Shown here in pieces: positions 8,611 through 63,147 of a stretch of DNA of 64,000 nt (its first letter is position 1; each line of letters begins with the position of its first letter). The notes beneath the pieces are model-generated. The model was not told the origin of the DNA and made no database searches. It saw nothing but the letters and a program-made list of their open reading frames with translations. The stretch is from Shewanella vesiculosa (GTDB lineage Bacteria; Pseudomonadota; Gammaproteobacteria; Enterobacterales; Shewanellaceae), in NCBI RefSeq assembly GCF_021560015.1, contig NZ_CP073588.1, forward strand, positions 186,001-250,000, in the 5' to 3' direction. The translations under genes and the position numbers were made by a program.

Positions 8611-9334
8611 ATGACTTAATTTTGGCTAATCTTAGTTGAGATTGACTGATATGACTCAGGCACACTTGTGTTGCTAAAGACCGCTTACCAAGTAGGCTTG
8701 AACAAGTTGACTCGTAAGCTGAACACATATATCTATCTTGTTTATCTTTGCATTATGCATAGGCTTAAGCTGTTGGTTTTCGTTAGGCTAAACTTTGCAT
8801 TATCAAACATGTTAGCTGTCTGTGTGGCATTAGCTATCATTAAGCGCTAACAACAAGGGATAACAATCGCTAACAACCGACAACAAGAATACCCGTCATA
8901 ATGCTGTTACATATAGGTTATAAACCTTGCCAGTAAGTTATTAAGATTTAATTTATTATTTTAAGCTCGCTAAAGTTTATCAATAGTATTAGCGTTTGTC
9001 TTCCTCGGTGAGTTTAGGCCATTTTACACTTCTTAAGTGCGATAAACTTATGCGGGTAATCTTGTGTCATAAGCTTGTCTTGTCAGCATTATTGTGACAA
9101 GTAGTTAATTTAGTTAAGCTGGAATTGGCTATTGTTTATTATTTTATAAACAAATTTATATTCTTATTTTTTTAAGTGTTTGATATTAAGTGTGTTATTT
9201 TTTGTATTTGTTCATGTAATACTTTTGAACCTTGTGTCATCTAACTGTCACATCAACGTCATAGACTTGTCATCAATGAGGTCGATACTGACTACGTTTT
9301 AAAAACTTAGTACGCTTAATTCTGGAGCATTACA
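8611..9334 (+). promoter_or_regulatory. Gene-poor regulatory region upstream of pstS with several candidate Pho boxes
   Basis: About 720 bp with no convincing coding sequence. A candidate Pho box at 8893-8910 (CCGTCATAATGCTGTTAC, 14 of 18 consensus matches, half-sites 11 bp apart) and a weaker one at 9064-9081 lie well upstream of the main tandem box at 9234-9273. At 9079-9101 there is an inverted repeat CTTGTCA/TGACAAG with a 9-nt centre. The far-upstream box may serve an unseen transcript, long-range activation, or nothing. Confidence 0.5.
9234..9273 (+). promoter_or_regulatory. Tandem double Pho box of pstS
   Basis: Two adjacent 18-bp sites (GTGTCATCTAACTGTCAC at 9234 and ACGTCATAGACTTGTCAT at 9256) are offset by exactly 22 bp. 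The four TGTCAT-like half-sites start at 9235, 9246, 9257 and 9268, a strict 11-bp period. Such an array supports strong cooperative PhoB activation of the following gene. Confidence 0.85.
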
Positions 9335-10306
9335 ATGAAACTGAAAAAACTTGTCGGCGCAATTACTCTTACAGCCGCTGGCGTATTCTCAGCAGCATCT
9401 ATGGCTGCTATAGATCCAACTTTACCATCATATGAAAAAACAAGTGGTGTTTCTGGTAACTTGTCTTCTGTTGGCTCTGATACATTAGCAAACATGATGA
9501 CGTTATGGGCTGAAGAGTTTAAACACATCTATCCAAACGTTAATATCCAAATCCAAGCAGCCGGTTCTTCAACTGCGCCACCAGCATTAACTGAAGGTAC
9601 TTCTCAATTCGGTCCTATGAGCCGCAAAATGAAGCCTAACGAAGTTGAAGCATTTGAAAAGCATTTCGGTTATAAGCCAACAGCGGTTCGTGTTGCTATC
9701 GATGCTTTAGCTGTATTCGTACACAAAGATAACCCAATTACAGGTTTAAGCATTGAACAAATTGATGCTATCTTCTCTTCTACACACAAGTGTGGCGGTA
9801 AAGAAATCAACCGTTGGGGCGATGCTGGTTTAGACGGCAACTGGGCAGCTAAAGACGTTCAGCTTTACGGTCGTAACTCAGTATCTGGTACTTACGGTTA
9901 CTTTAAAGAAAAAGCATTATGTAAAGGTGACTTCCGTGCAAACGTGAACGAGCAACCAGGTTCTGCTTCTGTAGTTCAGTCTGTTTCTCAGTCACTTAAT
10001 GCCATTGGTTACTCTGGTATTGGTTATAAAACAGCGGGCGTAAAAGCGGTAGCTATCTCTAAGAAAGGTGATAAGTTTATCGAAGCATCAGCAGCCAACG
10101 CAGCAGATGGTACTTACCCACTATCACGTTACTTATATGTTTACGTGAACAAGCATCCTAATAAAGACCTATCGCCAATGGATCGTGAATTCTTACGCTT
10201 CGTATTGTCTAAGCAAGGTCAGCAAATTGTTGAGAAAGATGGTTATGTTCCATTACCAACATCTGTGATTTCAAAAGATTTAGAGAAAGTCGGTATTACG
10301 CTTTAG
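9335..10306 (+). CDS. pstS: Phosphate ABC transporter periplasmic binding protein, PstS family
   Basis: A 323-aa exported protein. The signal peptide ends near SMAA; the mature part has the PstS phosphate-binding hallmarks [32 protein letters not shown] and [11 protein letters not shown]. It binds phosphate in the periplasm for delivery to PstCAB. pstC, pstA and pstB are not next to it here; a terminator follows directly, so either the permease genes are elsewhere or this is one of two PstS paralogues, as is common in Shewanella. The tandem Pho box upstream indicates PhoB control. Confidence 0.92.
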
Positions 10307-10328
10307 TTAACTCACTTTCAGTAAACTT

Positions 10329-10354
10329 AAAAAGGCCTCTTTGAGGCCTTTTTT
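10329..10354 (+). terminator. Terminator after pstS
   Basis: GC-rich hairpin AAAAAGGCCTC/GAGGCCTTTTT followed by more T residues, 23 bp after the pstS stop codon. Confidence 0.88.
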
Positions 10355-10378
10355 GTTTTTTAACGTGAAAAAAAATAT

Positions 10379-10520
10379 AAAAAAAAGCAACCTAACTAAG
10401 AGGTTGCTGCTATTGCTAAGGGCAATGCTGTTGATAGATTTTTACAACTATCGAATAGGAGAATGATGATGAACAATAAGAAGCTACTTGGTACATAAAA
10501 AGTAATTCAAATTTGGTTCA
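10379..10520 (-). ncRNA. Putative sigma-E-dependent small RNA, copy 1
   Basis: About 140 nt, transcribed leftward towards pstS. A terminator hairpin GCAACCT/AGGTTGC (10387-10407) is followed on the minus strand by eight U residues (10379-10386). A sigma-E-type promoter lies just upstream. The segment 10457-10476 reads UUGUUCAUCAUCAUUCUCCU on the minus strand, shared in its first 14 bases with copies 2 to 5. Further stems GATAG/CTATC and TTGC/GCAA lie between this segment and the terminator. This copy is the most diverged: it lacks the CUAGCGC loop of the others. The remaining sequence 10555-10922 holds nothing I can identify apart from the start of the aminopeptidase gene. Confidence 0.65.
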
Positions 10521-10525
10521 TATAA

Positions 10526-10552
10526 TATGACTCATCATTTCTGAGTTAGTTC
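10526..10552 (-). promoter_or_regulatory. Sigma-E-type promoter of sRNA copy 1
   Basis: On the minus strand GAACTA (plus 10547-10552), 16 nt, TCATA (10526-10530). It deviates most from consensus among the five copies but keeps the identical spacing; a G precedes the -35, giving GGAACT. Confidence 0.5.
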
Positions 10553-10922
10553 CCGATGATACTAAAAAAATGCATTTTTATATAAAAATAAGATTGGCAA
10601 AATAAGATGTGAGATTAAAACGTTTTATTTTTTAATGGGTTGTATTCATTATAATCTAGATAGATTTTTCTGGTTTCTGGCGCTTTATTCGTCTTTTACC
10701 CGAAATACATTAAGGCATACATTGTGAATGTGATTTACTTCGCGTTATGTTTTAGGTTTATGCCATTCGTCGCATGGCAAACATCAAGTCTAAATTGATG
10801 GCTTATTATTTTGCTTTTCCTGTGATCGATATTCCTCTGTGACCCAATACGGCACATTTTGATGATGCTAATGCTATTATCGTTACTGGATTTGATGTTT
10901 CTCTGCCAAGTAAGGGTTTTTT

Positions 10923-12704
10923 GTGACTGCAAAATGGAACGTACAACACGATTACCATTCAAGCGCCAATACGGATGCTTTATGTGTGCATCATCTTGAT
11001 CTTAATCTCGTGGTTGATTTTGACTTACAGCAACTTATCGGCGTTGCCCGATTGCAATTTACGCGCACCATATCGGCAGTCTCATTAGTGTTAGATTGCC
11101 GAGATTTACTCATACAAGCTATCACCGACAGTCACGCTAATCCGTTGTCGTATACTATGAGTGATGTGAGTGACATACTCGGTCAAAAGCTGGTGATAGA
11201 TATTGGGGAGCAAGTCGATGAGGTGGTGATTGATTATCGTACATCCACAAACGCTCAAGGGCTTCAATGGCTTACACCGCAACAAACCTTAGGTAAAAAA
11301 TTACCTTACCTATTTAGCCAATCACAGCCCATCAACGCGCGTAGCTGGATACCTTTGCAAGATACCCCAAAAGCACGAATAACCTTTAATGCAACCATCA
11401 ATGTGCCCCAGGGTTTACGTGCGGTAATGAGTGCCGAAAATATCCCTGACATGCCAGATGATGGTGTATTTACATTTTGCATGAATAAACCGATCCCGAC
11501 ACATTTACTCGCGATAGCGGTTGGAGAGCTAAGCTTTCAAGCAACAGGTCCCAGAAGTGGTATTTATACTGAACCCGGCATGCTTGCTGCGGCTGTCAAA
11601 GAATTTGAAGATACCGAGTCGATGATCCAAATCGCTGAGTCCATATTAGGACCTTATGCTTGGGGCCGCTTTGACATGATTATTTTGCCACCAAGCTTTC
11701 CATTTGGTGGCATGGAAAATCCCATGTTAGCGTTTATGACCCCGACATTAATTGCTGGTGATAAAAGTCTTGTTTCAACTGTTGCTCACGAATTAGCTCA
11801 TTCTTGGACGGGTAATTTAGTCAGTAATGCAACTTGGCGAGATTTATGGCTCAATGAGGGATTTACCACTTATTTTACTAATCGTATTGTAGAAGCGGTT
11901 TATGGCGAAGAGCAGGCAGAACTCGAATGGGTTATCGAGTACGGACGTTTGCAAGAGGAAATGGGATCTACTCCCTTAGTCAGTCAAACCTTACCAGCCA
12001 ATGTGCAAGATCGCGATCCTAATCTGGCATTTAATCGCTTTACCTACGATAAAGCATCGATGTTTGTGCATGAGCTTGAAAGTCGATTAGGCCGAGCTGC
12101 ATTTGATAAGTTCCTATTTCAATATGTCGATTATTTTTCGTTTAGCGCCATTACCACTGAAACATTTATTGATTATGCCAAGCAAACGCTGTTGGTGGAA
12201 CATCATGATAAGTTAACGTTATCAGAGCTTAACGAGTGGGTGTATGGACAAGGATTACCTCAATGGTTTATCGGTCCAACCTCAAGCAGTTTAGATAAAG
12301 TTGAGTTAGCCGTTGAGGCTGTTATTAAAGGTACTCCAGCAATTGAGTTACAGGTCGATGGGTGGCGAGTTCACCACTGGCAGTATTTCCTCACCCAATT
12401 ACCTTTAGTGGTAAGCCAAGCGGTATTATTAGATTTAGACGCTACATTTACGTTAACAAATAGCCTGAATGCCGAAATAGCCTGTGATTGGTATCGAGTT
12501 GCCATCCGTAATCATTTTGATCCTGTGTTACCTGCATTAAGTGGCTACCTATGCCGTATAGGTCGAGGCAAATTTGTTAGACCCTTGTTTGTTGAGTTAC
12601 AAATAGCCGGTTATCAACAAGAATTACTCGATATTTATGCAAAAGCGCGCCCTGGCTATCATCCTTCTCTTCAAGTACAGCTAGACAAACTACTGATAAT
12701 TTGA
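10923..12704 (+). CDS. M1-family zinc aminopeptidase (leukotriene A4 hydrolase-like)
   Basis: A 593-aa cytosolic M1 metallopeptidase removing N-terminal residues from peptides. Visible hallmarks are the exopeptidase motif GGMEN at residues 262-266, the zinc motif HELAH at 289-293 and the third ligand E312 in NEGFTTY, exactly 18 residues later, followed by the C-terminal helical domain of the LTA4-hydrolase branch (YGQGLPQWF). The start is GTG at 10923 with AAGGG six bases upstream; no in-frame ATG offers a better choice. No signal peptide. Stands alone between small-RNA genes transcribed towards or away from it. Confidence 0.92.
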   Translation: MTAKWNVQHDYHSSANTDALCVHHLDLNLVVDFDLQQLIGVARLQFTRTISAVSLVLDCRDLLIQAITDSHANPLSYTMSDVSDILGQKLVIDIGEQVDEVVIDYRTSTNAQGLQWLTPQQTLGKKLPYLFSQSQPINARSWIPLQDTPKARITFNATINVPQGLRAVMSAENIPDMPDDGVFTFCMNKPIPTHLLAIAVGELSFQATGPRSGIYTEPGMLAAAVKEFEDTESMIQIAESILGPYAWGRFDMIILPPSFPFGGMENPMLAFMTPTLIAGDKSLVSTVAHELAHSWTGNLVSNATWRDLWLNEGFTTYFTNRIVEAVYGEEQAELEWVIEYGRLQEEMGSTPLVSQTLPANVQDRDPNLAFNRFTYDKASMFVHELESRLGRAAFDKFLFQYVDYFSFSAITTETFIDYAKQTLLVEHHDKLTLSELNEWVYGQGLPQWFIGPTSSSLDKVELAVEAVIKGTPAIELQVDGWRVHHWQYFLTQLPLVVSQAVLLDLDATFTLTNSLNAEIACDWYRVAIRNHFDPVLPALSGYLCRIGRGKFVRPLFVELQIAGYQQELLDIYAKARPGYHPSLQVQLDKLLII

Positions 12705-12745
12705 GTATTAACCTTTTTATTGCGTTGTTTTTGTCAAAAAATGAT

Positions 12746-12990
12746 AAAAAAAAATGGCAGCCACATTGGCTGCCAAAATAATGCTTTGCGGGTTGTTATC
12801 AACGGTGCGCTAGCGTGTTAATACTTCCCAATAGAGATGATGATGAACAATAAACTGTGTTGCAATAACTTAATCTAAACTGGTGTATGGCATAAGCCGC
12901 GTGAATCATTTAGCCGTATAATCAATTAACTCGGGGGATGAAGATTAACTCATTATATGGCACTCATTTGAAACTACATTTTATCCGTAC
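12746..12990 (-). ncRNA. Putative sigma-E-dependent small RNA, copy 2
   Basis: About 245 nt, transcribed leftward and ending convergent with the aminopeptidase gene. The terminator is a perfect 9-bp stem TGGCAGCCA/TGGCTGCCA (12755-12775) followed on the minus strand by nine U residues. The shared segment UUGUUCAUCAUCAUCUCU is at 12834-12850 (plus coordinates). Downstream of it a hairpin closes with ATTAAC/GTTGAT around the conserved loop sequence GCUAGCGC. Some 140 nt of 5' sequence precede the shared segment and resemble copy 3. A second internal promoter (TATAAT at about 12953 on the minus strand) could give a shorter form. Confidence 0.72.
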
Positions 12991-12996
12991 AATTAA

Positions 12997-13023
12997 TAAG
13001 ACTGGGCATAATCAGGAAAGTTC
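12997..13023 (-). promoter_or_regulatory. Sigma-E-type promoter of sRNA copy 2
   Basis: Minus strand GAACTT (plus 13018-13023), 16 nt, TCTTA (12997-13001). Just upstream of the -35 is an A/T-rich stretch (A7 then T6 on the minus strand) that resembles an UP element. Confidence 0.65.
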
Positions 13024-13284
13024 ACTGAAAAAATGATTTTTTTGAATTTATTTTGCGTGCGATAAATCGCTTCAGTTATCGATGGACTTTTGCACAGATG
13101 CTGATCTCTTTTGAGTGAGCCTTTATCGGAGTGAAGCCAGTATTTTGATAATAACTGCGCCATTAGAGATCAAAATTTAACCTAACTCGTTTGGGATTAT
13201 TGAGCTATTAGCATTATTGATGCTGCTCAATTCTTTGGGCGGATGATTAATACCATGTGTAAAAGGATTTCACACATTAATGGC

Positions 13285-13524
13285 AAAAAAATGGCAACCA
13301 ATGTGGTTGCCTAAGTCGTTCTTTGTAGGTCGTAATTAACGGTGCGCTAGCATGTTAATACTGCCTAAATAGGGATGATGATGAACATAAAACGGTATAG
13401 CAGTAATAATCCTAACTAAAAACTTGTGATAAGTGATGTCAATAATTTAGCAATAATCAATTAACGCTGATGAAGAAGCTAACTCATTATGCTGCACTTA
13501 CTTAAACTATATCTTACTCCGTAC
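13285..13524 (-). ncRNA. Putative sigma-E-dependent small RNA, copy 3
   Basis: About 240 nt, with the same organisation as copy 2, whose start lies about 540 bp away. Terminator stem GGCAACCA/TGGTTGCC (13293-13311) plus seven U residues. The shared segment at 13371-13388 reads AUGUUCAUCAUCAUCCCU. The following hairpin closes with TTAAC/GTTAA and has GCUAGCGC (here with an A-to-T flank change) in its loop. The 5' third is clearly homologous to copy 2. The 260-bp spacer 13024-13284 between copies 2 and 3 shows no gene. Confidence 0.75.
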
Positions 13525-13530
13525 AATTAA

Positions 13531-13557
13531 TAAGACTGGCTGTCATTAGGAAAGTTC
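13531..13557 (-). promoter_or_regulatory. Sigma-E-type promoter of sRNA copy 3
   Basis: Minus strand GAACTT (plus 13552-13557), 16 nt, TCTTA (13531-13535), with an A/T-rich upstream stretch nearly identical to that of copy 2. Confidence 0.65.
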
Positions 13558-13825
13558 ACTGAAAAAACGATTTTTTTGAATTTAATTTATCAGAGTCATA
13601 TTTTCGGTGTTTTCAGCGTATATCTTTGGGGGATAATAGCTAAAGATCATGAGTATATAGGGTTTATATTATGCAATGAGTGGTTTTTTATACAGTTTAT
13701 CAATAGGTTGGTTTTTAGCGCTTTAGCTGGGTCTGGTCTCATAAGCTACTTTTTAAACTATTGTGTATGCTCAGGAAGGCGTCGATGTGATGCCAACAGA
13801 TAAAGATTATTGGCAAATATAAGCT

Positions 13826-14010
13826 AAAAAAATGGCAACCAATATGGTTGCCTAAGTCGTTCTTTGTGGGTTGTGATTAACGGTGCGCTAGCGTGTTAAT
13901 ACTCGCCAAATAGGGATGATGATGAACAATACACATAAAGCTGTTGTAACAAGTAAATACAAACTAAACATTGGAGAACGGTTTAACGAGTTTGTCTCCT
14001 TACTGGTTAC
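13826..14010 (-). ncRNA. Putative sigma-E-dependent small RNA, copy 4
   Basis: About 185 nt. Terminator stem GGCAACCA/TGGTTGCC (13834-13852) plus seven U residues, nearly identical to copy 3. The shared segment UUGUUCAUCAUCAUCCCU is at 13912-13929, followed by the TTAAC/GTTAA hairpin with GCUAGCGC in its loop. The 5' part differs from copies 2 and 3 and contains its own stem GGAGA/TCTCC. The conserved 3' part next to a variable 5' part suggests that the shared segment, hairpin and terminator are the functional module. Confidence 0.77.
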
Positions 14011-14016
14011 ATATAT

Positions 14017-14043
14017 TCTGACTAGGGGGATTGGTAAAAGTTC
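14017..14043 (-). promoter_or_regulatory. Sigma-E-type promoter of sRNA copy 4
   Basis: Minus strand GAACTT (plus 14038-14043), 16 nt, TCAGA (14017-14021), close to the known sigma-E -10 forms TCTGA and TCAAA. The region upstream is T- and A-rich. Confidence 0.72.
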
Positions 14044-14196
14044 ACTCAATGACAAAAAAATTTAAAAATAATTGCTGAGTAAGATTTCGTTAATGTTTAC
14101 CGCGCAAAGCCGGTAACTAAGATTTAGCGGCAAATAAGTTTATATCAGGATAATGAGGTCATGTAATCCAGAGTGAATGATGTGTTTAACAAACAT

Positions 14197-14298
14197 AAAA
14201 AAAGGCAATCAAATGATTGCCTATCGATCGACTTAGCGATCAAGGGGACCGCGCTAGAAGTCCCAGGGAGATGATGAACAAAAGTGAATATCACTGTT
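14197..14298 (-). ncRNA. Putative sigma-E-dependent small RNA, copy 5 (shortest)
   Basis: About 100 nt, the size of classical Hfq-dependent sRNAs. A 5' hairpin AGTGA/TCACT is followed by UUGUUCAUCAUCUCCCU (14265-14281), a hairpin GGGAC/GTCCC with loop containing CUAGCGC, a stem GATCG/CGATC, and a terminator stem GGCAATCA/TGATTGCC (14204-14221) with seven U residues. The closing stem GGGAC/GTCCC replaces TTAAC/GTTAA of copies 3 and 4, so both strands changed together while the loop stayed the same; this compensatory change supports a real RNA structure. From 14332 to 14587 I see no further feature. Confidence 0.8.
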
Positions 14299-14304
14299 AC
14301 TAAG

Positions 14305-14331
14305 TTTGAGTACCTGATGGTTAAAAAGTTC
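14305..14331 (-). promoter_or_regulatory. Sigma-E-type promoter of sRNA copy 5
   Basis: Minus strand GAACTT (plus 14326-14331), 16 nt, TCAAA (14305-14309): a consensus-quality sigma-E promoter with an A/T-rich upstream stretch. Confidence 0.78.
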
Positions 14332-14587
14332 AATCTAAATACAATTTTTTATCGAAATAAAGATATAAATTTTATATTTTATAACTATCAGTAGCTTAGG
14401 TTTGTATTATTTTTGCTGTTTTTGAGATTTAAATTTGATGGTTAAATTTAAACATTGCAAAGGGATCTAACGCGTCAATTTATTTCTGTCTTCTTGGTAA
14501 CAGTAAGGCGATTAATATGATATCAATCGCCTAGCGTAAACACCTATTGCGCACGTAATTATAATATTCGAGCATCTGTGGTGCTGA

Positions 14588-15073
14588 TTAACTGAGCAAC
14601 TTTTCAATAATAGTATTAAGCTCTTCTGGCTTAGTGGTTGGCGCATAGCGCTCAAGGATATTCCCTTGTTTATCAACTAAAAACTTAGTGAAGTTCCATT
14701 TAATAGATTCACTCCCTAAAAGACCTTTGGCAGACTTTTTAAGATGTTGGTACAAAGGATGACTGTTATTACCATTAACTTCAATTTTGCTAAACAGTGG
14801 AAATGTTACGCCAAAATTTAGTTGGCAAAATTGGCTGATCTCATCTTCTTTACCTTGTTCTTGTTTACCAAATTGATTACAAGGAAAGCCCAAGATAACT
14901 AAACCTCTATCTTTATATTGCTGATATAAATCCTCAAGTGCTTTGTATTGCGGAGTAAATCCACATTTACTTGCCGTGTTAACAATAAGCAAGACCTTAT
15001 CTTTAAACTGCTCCATGACAAGGTCTTTGCCTTGAATATCTTTTACGTTAATAGAATAAATTGCTGCAGTCAT
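14588..15073 (-). CDS. Glutathione peroxidase family protein (BtuE-like, Cys type)
   Basis: A 161-aa thioredoxin-fold peroxidase. The peroxidatic motif [11 protein letters not shown] has Cys where some family members have selenocysteine; the other signature parts, [11 protein letters not shown] and WNFTKFLVD, supply the Gln, Trp and Asn of the catalytic tetrad. These enzymes reduce hydrogen peroxide and lipid hydroperoxides, in bacteria usually with thioredoxin as the better donor. Cytoplasmic, single-gene unit, divergent from mgtE. E. coli BtuE is similar in size (183 aa). Confidence 0.92.
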
Positions 15074-15224: not shown

Positions 15225-16623
15225 ATGAATGATGTAAAGAACGAACTTAACTCTGAAGATGAAATCGACACCAGTTCGCAACCACAAGCAGATGTCAGCC
15301 AAGTGGTACATTTGTTAACTGAAGCAGAAGGTGATGAGCAGGCTGAAATGTTCAGTGAGATCTTAACTGAAGCCGAGCCGGGCACCATTGCTCTATTACT
15401 CGAATCGTTACCACTGGATGAGCGTTATGAACGCTGGCAGCAAGTTGATGTTGAAGAACGTGTCGACGTTTTAAACTTAATGCGCGCCGATCCTCGTTTA
15501 GGCATTGTAAAGAAAATGCCCGACGAGGAATTAGACTTACTCTTTTCTCAATTAAGTCCTGAAGATCTTATTGAGTGGAGTGATTCGTTACCTGACAATA
15601 TTACTGATCGTGCATTAGCTCAGATGGGCGAGCGTCAGCGTAAGCACTTCGAGCTGTATGATCAATATTCTGAAAATGAAATCGGTCGATATGCTGATCA
15701 CCAGATGCTGGCATTAAGTCTTAATTCTACCGTCGCACAAGGACAACGTTTTTTTCGTCGAATCGATTTAGATTGTAATGACCACCTATTTTTGGTCGAT
15801 AGTAACGATAAATATTTAGGAACAGTGCGGCGTTATGACGTATTCAGAACGGCAGATCTTGACACTCAACTGCACGTCTTAAAATGGGATGACAGCCGAG
15901 TTATCTCTGCCGATTCATCTTTAATTGAAGCCGCCGAAGCGATTGAGCATAGTCGTGAGCTTGAATTACCAGTTGTTGATGAAGACGGTATATTGATTGG
16001 CCGCATGACATTGCGAACAGCGACAGCCTTAGTGCGTGAACATTATGAAGCACAACTAATGGCAACCGCAGGTATGGATGAACACGACGATTTATTTGCT
16101 CCAATTGTCATTGGTGCCAAACGTCGTGCCGTGTGGCTAGGGATTAACTTACTTACCGCATTTTTAGCTTCTGCTACCATTGGTTTATTTGAGAATGTAT
16201 TGTCGCAGGTTGTTGCATTAGCGGTATTGATGCCTATTGTGGCATCAATGGGGGGGGATTGCGGGGAGCCAATCATTAACGCTGATGATCCGTGGTATGG
16301 CAATGGGTCAAATTTCAGCTGGTAACGTCATGTCGTTGATGAAAAATGAGCTAGGGATCGGTGCGCTTAATGGCATGCTATGGTCAATTGTCATTGGTAT
16401 TATTGCGGGGTGGTGGTTTGACGATACGATCATGGGTATTGTTATTGCTTGTGCAATTTTAATCAATATGGCGGTTGCTGCTATTGCCGGGGTGATGGTA
16501 CCGATGATTTTACAGCGTTTTAATCAAGATGCGGCTTTATCGGGATCGGTTATTCTCACCACTGTGACCGACGTGGTAGGTTTTTTTACCTTCTTGGGAT
16601 TAGCGACCATACTGTACCTGTAA
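15225..16623 (+). pseudogene. mgtE: Magnesium transporter MgtE, frameshifted in a G8 tract
   Basis: Two overlapping frames together make one MgtE channel of about 465 codons. The first (15225-16325) has the cytosolic N domain, paired CBS domains and the first membrane helices; the second (from about 16250 to 16623) has the remaining membrane helices, ending GLATILYL. The break is at a run of eight G (16250-16257): with seven G the reading would continue as ASMGGIAGSQSLTLMIRG, the conserved MgtE pore sequence. As read, the first frame ends in an unrelated tail and the gene is inactive. A sequencing error, real slippage, or true decay cannot be told apart here. AAGGACGG before the ATG is a good ribosome-binding site. 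Confidence 0.88.
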
Positions 16624-61214: not shown

Positions 61215-61290
61215 TGGTGGAGCTACACGGGATCGAACCGTGGACCTCTTCACTGCCAGCGAAGCGCTCTCCCAGCTGAGCTATAGCCCC
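61215..61290 (-). tRNA. tRNA-Ala (GGC), last gene of the array
   Basis: 76 nt with encoded CCA. Cloverleaf complete: acceptor GGGGCTA/TAGCTCC with the alanine identity pair G3-U70, anticodon loop CTGGCAG (anticodon GGC), T-loop GGTTCGATCC. Confidence 0.96.
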
Positions 61291-61326
61291 AAATTTTAGT
61301 TAATAGACACCAAAATCTGAAAAATA

Positions 61327-61402
61327 TGGTATCCCATAGGGGATTCGAACCCCTGTTACCGCCGTGAAAGGGCGGTGTCCTAGGCCTCTAGACGAATGGG
61401 AC
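61327..61402 (-). tRNA. tRNA-Glu (TTC), intact
   Basis: 76 nt with encoded CCA; acceptor GTCCCAT/ATGGGAT, anticodon stem CCGCC/GGCGG with loop CTTTCAC (anticodon TTC). It begins a 208-bp tandem repeat unit shared by the next two copies. Confidence 0.96.
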
Positions 61403-61534
61403 ACAGTTGATACGTTATACTCTGTATCGAGTGAATACTCATTGGTGTCTGTAGGCTAAACACCAGTGCTATGTAGATCATTAAACACTTTTTCTAAAAC
61501 AACAGTTTCGAATCATGTTCAACCATCTTAAATA

Positions 61535-61610
61535 TGGTATCCCATAGGGGATTCGAACCCCTGTTACCGCCGTGAAAGGGCGGTGTCCTAGGCCTCTAGA
61601 CGAATGGGAC
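61535..61610 (-). tRNA. tRNA-Glu (TTC), intact
   Basis: Identical in the gene body to the copy at 61327 and exactly 208 bp from it. Confidence 0.96.
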
Positions 61611-61742
61611 ACAGTTGATACGTTATACTCTGCATCGAGTGAATACTCATTGGCGTCTGTAGGCTAAACACCAGTGCTATGTAGATCATTAAACACTTTT
61701 TCTAAAACAACAGTTTCGAATCATGTTCAACCATCTTAAATA

Positions 61743-61818
61743 TGGTATCCCATAGGGGATTCGAACCCCTGTTACCGCCGTGAAAGGGCGGTGTCCTAGG
61801 CCTCTAGACGAATGGGAC
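61743..61818 (-). tRNA. tRNA-Glu (TTC), intact
   Basis: Identical gene body, 208 bp from the previous copy. With the degenerate copy at 61908 it forms a 387-bp block that recurs at 62334. Confidence 0.96.
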
Positions 61819-61907
61819 ACAGTTGATACGTTATACTCTGTATCGAGTGAATACTCATTGGTGTCTGTAGGCTAAACACCAGCGCTAGTTACCTATAATG
61901 AGGCACA

Positions 61908-61997
61908 AAACCCTAAGGATTCGCACCCCTGTTACCGCCGACTCTTTATAAACCGAAGTGGGCGATGTCCTAAGCTCTATTTCTAGACGAATGGGAC
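61908..61997 (-). pseudogene. Degenerate tRNA-Glu copy with enlarged anticodon arm (first of three)
   Basis: The acceptor 5' arm and D-arm region are recognisable (GTCCCATTCGTCTAGA), but about 8 extra bases follow in the D region, a 19-nt insertion replaces the anticodon loop between CGCC and GGCGG, the T-arm reads GGGGTGCGAATCCTT and the 3' acceptor half and CCA are lost. No glutamate anticodon remains. Confidence 0.8.
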
Positions 61998-62129
61998 ACA
62001 GTTGATACGTTATACTCTGTATCGAGTGAATACTCATTGGTGTCTGTAGGCTAAACACCAGTGCTATATAGATCATCAAACACTTTTTCTAAAACAACAG
62101 TTTCGAATCATGTTCAACCATCTTAAATA

Positions 62130-62201
62130 TGGTATCCCATAGGGATTCGAACCCCTGTTACCGTGAAAGGGCGGTGTCCTAGGCCTCTAGACGAATGGGA
62201 C
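62130..62201 (-). pseudogene. tRNA-Glu copy with small deletions
   Basis: 72 nt instead of 76. Three bases of the 3' anticodon-stem strand (of GGCGG) and one base of the T-stem are missing, so the cloverleaf cannot form normally, although the TTC anticodon loop and CCA remain. Confidence 0.82.
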
Positions 62202-62333
62202 ACAGTTGATACGTTATACTCTGCATCGAGTGAATACTCATTGGTGTCTGTAGGCTAAACACCAGTGCTATATAGATCATCAAACACTTTTTCTAAAACA
62301 ACAGTTTCGAATCATGTTCAACCATCTTAAATA

Positions 62334-62409
62334 TGGTATCCCATAGGGGATTCGAACCCCTGTTACCGCCGTGAAAGGGCGGTGTCCTAGGCCTCTAGAC
62401 GAATGGGAC
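62334..62409 (-). tRNA. tRNA-Glu (TTC), intact
   Basis: Full 76-nt cloverleaf with CCA, identical to the copies at 61327-61818. Confidence 0.96.
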
Positions 62410-62497
62410 ACAGTTGATACGTTATACTCTGCATCGAGTGAATACTCATTGGTGTCTGTAGGCTAAACACCAGTGCTAGTTACCTATAATGAAGCAC

Positions 62498-62588
62498 GAA
62501 ACCCTAAGGATTCGAACCTCTGTTACCGCCGACTCTTTATAAACCAAAGTGGGCGATGTCCTAAGCTCTATTTCTAGACGAATGGGAC
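62498..62588 (-). pseudogene. Degenerate tRNA-Glu copy with enlarged anticodon arm (second of three)
   Basis: Same insertions as the copy at 61908 but with TTCGAA kept in the T-loop and CTTT/AAAG pairing inside the insertion. It differs from the first by only a few point changes, so the altered form was itself duplicated. Confidence 0.8.
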
Positions 62589-62720
62589 ACAGTTGATACG
62601 TTATACTCTGTATCGAGTGAATACTCATTGGTGTCTGTAGGCTAAACACCAGTGCTATGTAGATCATCAAACACTTTTTCTAAAACAATAGTTTCGAATC
62701 ATGTTCAACCATCTTAAATA

Positions 62721-62796
62721 TGGTATCCCATAGGGGATTCGAACCCCTGTTACCGCCGTGAAAGGGCGGTGTCCTAGGCCTCTAGACGAATGGGAC
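62721..62796 (-). tRNA. tRNA-Glu (TTC), intact
   Basis: Full 76-nt cloverleaf with CCA, 387 bp from the intact copy at 62334. Confidence 0.96.
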
Positions 62797-62885
62797 ACAG
62801 TTGATACGTTATACTCTGCATCGAGTGAATACTCATTGGTGTCTGTAGGCTAAACACCAGTGCTAGTTACCTATAATGAAGTACA

Positions 62886-62975
62886 AAACCCTAAGGATTC
62901 GCACCCCTGTTACCGCCGACTCTTTATAAACCAAAGTGGGCGATGTCCTAAGCTCTATTTCTAGACGAATGGGAC
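62886..62975 (-). pseudogene. Degenerate tRNA-Glu copy with enlarged anticodon arm (third of three)
   Basis: Same architecture as the other two; T-loop changed to TGCGAA as in the first copy, insertion as in the second. It is the first Glu-like unit transcribed after tRNA-Ala. Confidence 0.8.
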
Positions 62976-63071
62976 ACAGTTGATACGTTATACTCTGTAT
63001 CGAGTGAATACTCATTGGTGTCTGTAGGCTAAACATCAATGCTAATATCTATTTAAAGATAGTTAAGTAAG

Positions 63072-63147
63072 TGGTGGAGCTACACGGGATCGAACCGTGG
63101 ACCTCTTCACTGCCAGCGAAGCGCTCTCCCAGCTGAGCTATAACCCC
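63072..63147 (-). tRNA. tRNA-Ala (GGC), first gene of the array
   Basis: 76 nt with CCA. Same as the copy at 61215 except for one base in the acceptor stem (GGGGTTA), changing the fifth pair from C-G to U-G; G3-U70 is kept. Confidence 0.95.

Follow-up and report, generated by a model that had tools for sequence, protein, structure and literature searches.

Small RNAs (sRNAs) driven by sigma-E that curb porin synthesis have been worked out in enterobacteria and Vibrio, and the gene of one such RNA, micA, lies beside luxS. In Vibrio cholerae, VrrA and MicV have a common seed, as PMC7602753 states. The closest precedent that we found for a multicopy envelope-stress sRNA is LhrC1-5 of Listeria monocytogenes, which, according to PMC4132741, is induced by cell-envelope stress and uses CU-rich sites to bind its target mRNA and block translation. 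For Shewanella oneidensis, PMC2659441 (2009) reports that micA and rybB were not found, that a different mechanism may exist, and that the Omp35 protein was up 7-fold anaerobically with nearly equal mRNA. RyhB of S. oneidensis acts with Hfq to destabilise omp35 and nrfA mRNA, both targets being named in PMC5826389, which shows that an sRNA can control omp35 in that species.

The window analysed here is a stretch of 64,000 nt from Shewanella vesiculosa (NZ_CP073588.1, assembly GCF_021560015.1, positions 186,001-250,000, forward strand). A preliminary description had claimed that it holds five minus-strand promoter-core-terminator units, with a unit near 10.4 kb as the fifth member. Sequence reading found all five, each with promoter, core and terminal T-run as claimed, and assigned the 10.4 kb unit to subtype A of the same family; the order from high to low coordinates was C-B-B-B-A. 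The core, TTCATCATC, occurred 7 times in the window (5 of them within units) versus 0.67 expected, and 0 of 100 shuffles reached 7. We put the probability at roughly 0.8 that the five units are sRNA genes with sigma-E-type promoters and that the RNAs made from them would base-pair with porin mRNAs across the ribosome-binding site and start codon, probably stopping porin synthesis on envelope damage. We infer that the units are transcribed.

The 5' ends of all five predicted sRNAs are approximate. The predicted sRNA of unit C (subtype C, 14197..14299, minus strand, ~103 nt) has its core at 14270-14278, covarying hairpins and a 7-T terminator, and a pattern scan placed its sigma-E-type promoter, GAACTT-N16-TCAAA, at 14305..14331 on the same strand. 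The three units of subtype B, likewise on the minus strand with promoters from the pattern scan, are B3 (13826..14011, ~186 nt, core 13918-13926, 7-T terminator, promoter GAACTT-N16-TCAGA at 14017..14043), B2 (13285..13525, ~241 nt, core 13377-13385, 7-T terminator, promoter GAACTT-N16-TCTTA at 13531..13557) and B1 (12746..12991, ~246 nt, core 12839-12847, 9-T terminator, promoter GAACTT-N16-TCTTA at 12997..13023). Unit A (subtype A, 10379..10520, minus strand, ~142 nt) has its core at 10465-10473 and an 8-T terminator; its promoter, GAACTA-N16-TCATA, was read from the sequence at 10526..10552 (minus strand), and its 5' end was placed 5 nt past the -10 box. A loop motif, CUAGCGC, was located in the sequence of the minus strand at 14251..14257 in unit C (backed by family counts), 13885..13891 in B3, 13344..13350 in B2 and 12807..12813 in B1, and is absent from the window's A.

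By profile search, the neighbours of the array are a porin (PF13609, 5274..6212, plus strand), PhoB, PhoR, a PstS-type protein and an M1/leukotriene-A4-hydrolase-type peptidase (10923-12704), with glutathione peroxidase and MgtE on the far side. The porin gene adjoins phoB; within the window, unit A is predicted to act on the start of this gene, AAAGGATGAAATGATGAACG. A Pho-box-like site at 9234-9251, with 1 mismatch to the Pho-box consensus used for matching, lies upstream of the gene for the PstS-type protein. The MgtE-type gene consists of two overlapping ORFs in different frames (15225-16325 and 16237-16623), reflecting a frameshift or sequencing error. Elsewhere in the window, on the minus strand at 61215-63147, five tRNA-Glu genes are clustered between two tRNA-Ala genes.

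We then assessed the promoters. GAACTT-N16-TCNNA occurred 4 times in the 64 kb window versus 0.46 expected, and 0 of 100 shuffles reached 4. The 25 nt upstream of the -35 element were 72-84% A+T in the five window units versus 59% in the window, and 77% in the family units versus 57% in their loci. Across the window's own genome, GAACTT-N14-18-TCNNA gave 121 matches, fewer than the reversed control (288). Taken alone, the promoter pattern is little proof, and the genome-wide scan for it was uninformative; the weight of the promoter evidence comes from the fixed spacing and the position ahead of a conserved RNA. To guard against circularity, units were also set by core and terminator alone, which gave 201 units in 56 of 59 regions. 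Among the 198 of these with 230 nt of upstream sequence, GAACWW-N16-TCNNA lay upstream in 176, while a spacer of 15 occurred in 0 units, a spacer of 17 in 3, other spacers in 0-6 and the opposite strand in 0. The strict motif was absent in 22 of the 198, and the 14 of these that were printed were for the most part variants (GAACCT, spacer 17) or had a promoter beyond the searched stretch. GAACTT-N16-TCTAC was found ~90 nt ahead of rpoE in 24 of 24 genomes read (25 loci, one of which gave no ORF). For 17 Shewanella strains this rpoE motif is in print together with a start mapped by primer extension, and the regulon table of that paper lists protein genes in its RpoE rows (PMC4336711). With the same -35 element and spacer ahead of rpoE and a promoter directly upstream of most units, the family has the layout of sigma-E-dependent sRNAs. 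The promoter and A/T-rich upstream DNA described earlier were recovered in all five units.

To follow the family across Shewanella, we searched with the M1 peptidase and obtained 80 loci, of which 58 were from Shewanella and 22 from unrelated groups were dropped; with the window, these made 59 regions. The results showed 193 units with promoter, core and T-run in 54 of the 59 regions, and in the five regions lacking a counted unit (L013, L020, L034, L037 and L046) contig ends cut the array. One unit was present in 4 regions, two in 8, three in 16, four in 11, five in 10, six in 4 and seven in 1, so that 50 of 54 regions were multicopy with 2-7 promoter-bearing units. The units fell into three subtypes, A (37 units, between pstS and the peptidase gene), B (111) and the short C (45). 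Concerted evolution was partial, the nearest relative lying in the same array for 50 of 90 B copies. A covariance model, R1, built from 37 of 43 distinct C units (the shortest unit type), matched all 114 Shewanella genomes searched. Run on a sample of 394 genomes of the order, R1 matched 30 genomes, all in one genus of 114, and no genus besides Shewanella was matched in that sample. In the sequences compared, the putative promoter motif, seed, covarying hairpins and terminators are conserved across the genus, and the tandem copies vary in number. The proposal of a multicopy sigma-E-type sRNA family in Shewanella, for which the preliminary description had called for a covariance-model search and named absence of the layout from relatives as grounds for refutation, is therefore borne out at the level of prediction by genus-wide conservation, promoter spacing and position, the matching rpoE promoter and covarying structure. 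The preliminary description knew of no account of the family, and none was found in the open-licence PMC literature searched. PMC5471319 predicts 184 (WP3) and 190 (MR-1) 3'-UTR candidates, whose positions its main text does not list, and some array units may be among them.

The predicted RNAs were assessed for structure. Across 37 C units, 98.1% of cells paired, whereas in slid structures pairing was down to 36-61%; the C structure was derived from the same alignment, which gives it an advantage over the slid versions. Double-change cells numbered 42 versus 13.5 in shuffles, and 0 of 500 shuffles reached 42. Single folds of the five units gave z-scores of -2.7 to -4.2, and together with the covariation and the terminal T-runs (8 in A, 9 in B1, 7 each in B2, B3 and C) these values fit small structured RNAs with an intrinsic terminator. 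Two elements were shared, the seed UUCAUCA and the hairpin-loop motif CUAGCGC. The latter was present in 45/45 C, 109/111 B and 21/37 A units; in subtypes B and C it varied no more than the seed did. GCTAGCGC was the sole invariant block in 40 B windows, although these had been picked for containing CUAGCGC, which fixed seven of its eight positions by choice. When constrained to stay unpaired, CUAGCGC could be closed in a hairpin loop in 98 of 98 distinct B windows versus 70% with shuffled flanks (mean energy -10.2 versus -4.4). In unconstrained folds, it was open with a mean probability of 0.85 in A and C and 0.55 in B, and this lesser openness weakens the idea of loop contacts for B. Of the 109 B units with the motif, 107 had it as a palindrome of 6-8 nt.

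These features were compared with those of the described systems. Like MicA (RF00078), the array units have sigma-E control (here predicted from promoter sequence), a seed near the 5' end and predicted pairing at outer-membrane protein (OMP) starts, and a 12-nt stretch of the Rfam consensus, AUCAUCAUCCCU, was present in 8 of 111 B units. Membership in MicA was rejected, as unit B3 scored 23.4 bits against a cut-off of 41 (E=2), the model gave no match for a C unit, and 0 matches reached gathering in 8 loci. Unlike micA, the array is multicopy with three subtypes and sits elsewhere in the genome, its neighbours being the pstS-type, M1 peptidase, glutathione peroxidase and mgtE genes. RybB and V. 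cholerae VrrA/MicV belong to a similar functional class of sigma-E-driven porin-repressing sRNAs (a function predicted here), but differ in seed and body (no Rfam match at the array) and are described as single genes, whereas the array units are tandem. LhrC1-5 resembles the array in being multicopy and Shine-Dalgarno-directed (predicted here); membership was rejected, as there was no Rfam match and sigma-E-type promoters stand in place of control by the LisRK two-component system, and LhrC further differs in its Gram-positive host, unrelated sequence and adhesin target. RyhB (RF00057) was also rejected, unit B1 being a weak match at 23.4 bits against a cut-off of 55 (E=0.4), and RyhB of S. 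oneidensis differs in being Fur-controlled. No Rfam family was found at the array at gathering scores. The family would belong to the sigma-E sRNA class known from enterobacteria and Vibrio; three subtypes, the loop motif and similar units in a sister genus are added here.

Taken as its reverse complement, the seed region gives a Shine-Dalgarno sequence and then AUGAUGAAC. To assess predicted binding, we compared OMP starts from 33 of 34 loci (porin-type matches and TonB receptors; L144 lacked a usable start, some starts are uncertain and that of L127 was placed by hand) with 318 background genes from 20 sampled stretches of the window's genome. Predicted binding was stronger at OMP starts for C (P = 4.3e-4), B3 (P = 0.003), B2 (P = 0.02) and B1 (P = 0.03), and marginally for A (P = 0.05). 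The difference between OMP and background starts was -2.5 for the real C head versus -0.2 to -1.6 for all 14 shuffled heads; 8 of these 14 also fell below P = 0.01, so that OMP starts as a group are readily bound. Several ordinary background genes of the same genome matched the porins in predicted binding strength. In this own-genome sample, the gene start at L184:16782 ranked near the top of the predicted partners for each of the five RNAs; we take this gene to be nrfA, the RyhB target mentioned above. ATGATGAAC occurred at 117 sites in the window's genome, and the 30 read were mostly inside coding frames with few at gene starts, the phoB-linked porin being among those few. OmpA-type starts gave mixed predicted binding, with paralogues and the choice of start uncertain.

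The strongest pairing involved subtype C and omp35. Using the units of Shewanella sp. ANA-3 and Omp35-like starts from 26 genomes (of 27 loci, 26 could be parsed, with three more loci outside the set), we obtained a mean predicted binding of -17.0 for C compared with -3.8 for 120 background genes, while A gave -9.7 on the same starts; the window's C gave -10.5 versus a background of -5.5. The strongest partner of the ANA-3 C unit was the omp35 start of genome G015; the C units of the two genomes share their first 48 nt exactly. The predicted duplex has 18 contiguous pairs spanning the start codon and codons 1-5, with a further 6 at the Shine-Dalgarno sequence. None of the 318 background genes of the window's genome was as strong (0/318); the omp35 start compared here was that of G015. 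Of the 45 C units, 11 contained the 18-mer, and its complement occurred in 4 of the 26 omp35 starts. In the 25 genomes with both partners, cognate pairs averaged -14.4 versus -12.7 for swapped pairs (P = 5.5e-4, phylogeny ignored), and the cognate omp35 had a median rank of 14 of 25 in its row. When five genomes of one clade were removed, the difference was gone (-11.4 versus -11.4, P = 0.42), and co-evolution of C with omp35 was rejected as a general signal because it rests on that clade. In the window's own genome, predicted C-omp35 pairing was -11.9, at the 3.8th percentile of background. By these predictions, one clade has a strong omp35 guide, and the guide in the other genomes is no more than moderate.

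Subtype A showed another preference. The motif AAAGGAT..ATGATGAA was present in 42 of 43 loci showing the porin N-terminus. Since porin starts were located by this motif, and complete ones only were used, the following comparison tests ranking and not discovery; it could be run in 29 of 31 loci with an A unit, with ~11 local genes per locus. The phoB-linked porin was the best predicted binder of A in 22 of 29 loci, compared with 5-11 for eight shuffled-head sets, and was ranked first by B in 21 of 38 loci and by C in 12 of 35. In ANA-3, A was predicted to bind it at -19.1 (2 of 318 background genes as strong) and omp35 weakly (37/318), while C was unremarkable on the phoB-linked porin (22/318). 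The earlier proposal that variable 5' parts on a constant core give differing targets thus gains computational support, both from the different porin mRNAs preferred by C and A in ANA-3 and from the ranking by A across loci.

We weighed other explanations for the array. The units could be sigma-E-driven sRNAs whose main targets are not porins, with the seed acting on other mRNAs or, chiefly, on some RNA or protein bound at the loop motif. Many non-OMP starts are predicted to bind as well as porins, and in C and B the constancy of CUAGCGC equals that of the seed, yet its complement showed no enrichment at OMP starts (2/33 versus 10/318 background), both of which favour this explanation. Nevertheless, we consider it unlikely, since A places the phoB-linked porin first well beyond its shuffled heads, C's preference for OMP starts exceeds that of the shuffles, and the omp35 match extends over 18 pairs.

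The setting of the array, beside pstS and near phoBR, would suit membership in the phosphate regulon under PhoB. The best Pho-box match in 10300-14600 had 4 mismatches, the same as in shuffles and against 1 for the site ahead of the PstS-type gene, and a sigma-E-type promoter precedes 176 of 198 units; PhoB control was therefore rejected and is very improbable. The plus strand of each core resembles a Shine-Dalgarno sequence with a ATGATGAAC start, as expected if the array held plus-strand small ORFs (MMNN...) or untranscribed repeats with an incidental sRNA look. However, the frames are of 10, 12, 13, 48 and 10 aa with unrelated continuations, and it is the minus strand that holds the covarying structure, promoter and terminator. 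Small ORFs were rejected on these grounds, and we give this explanation even less credence than PhoB control.

Our preferred reading of sigma-E-type sRNAs acting on porin mRNAs could be extended to a duplicating guide system, in which one sigma-E signal would drive several RNAs that share a body but differ in their porin-specific 5' guides (omp35 being the porin of C, through as many as 18 contiguous pairs, and the phoB-linked porin that of A). The CUAGCGC loops, which are palindromic in B and match as complements between B and either A or C, would kiss or dimerise and so set joint action. We offer this extension tentatively and regard it as doubtful.

A promoter-plus-core pattern scan covering 13 genomes revealed similar units in a sister genus of the same taxonomic family. 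In G145, four tandem units lie within 1.2 kb, adjoining a gene that is presumably ilvA. These units and others found in G145, G466 and G482 have GAACTW-N16 promoters, TTCATCATC cores and T-runs (L257:4170-5330, L258:4091, L259:5058 and 7790, L260:4810). The terminator of the fourth G145 tandem unit is doubtful. In contrast to the Shewanella array, these units lie at unrelated loci, where none of the seven proteins neighbouring the array in the window has a match, have shorter bodies and lack CUAGCGC in the units printed; model R1 did not recognise them (best E 0.05). Other pattern matches in the order looked like chance or conserved coding sequence, and the reversed control also gave 3. The pairing of seed and promoter may be older than the genus or may have arisen twice.

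Under the preferred reading, envelope damage would lead RpoE to switch on the units, as suggested by the motif and the same architecture ahead of rpoE. The RNAs would probably depend on Hfq, judging from their U-rich terminators and by analogy with RyhB in S. oneidensis, and their predicted pairing points to translational repression and mRNA decay. The copies appear specialised, with the ANA-3 C favouring omp35, A the phoB-linked porin and B being less selective, and having several copies may increase the amount of RNA made and let the 5' part acquire new targets. As a candidate open to testing, the family could account for the post-transcriptional control of Omp35, a gap named in PMC2659441. 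The question is testable because the family is genus-wide, multicopy and divided into subtypes, with strong predicted complementarity to omp35 in the clade of ANA-3.
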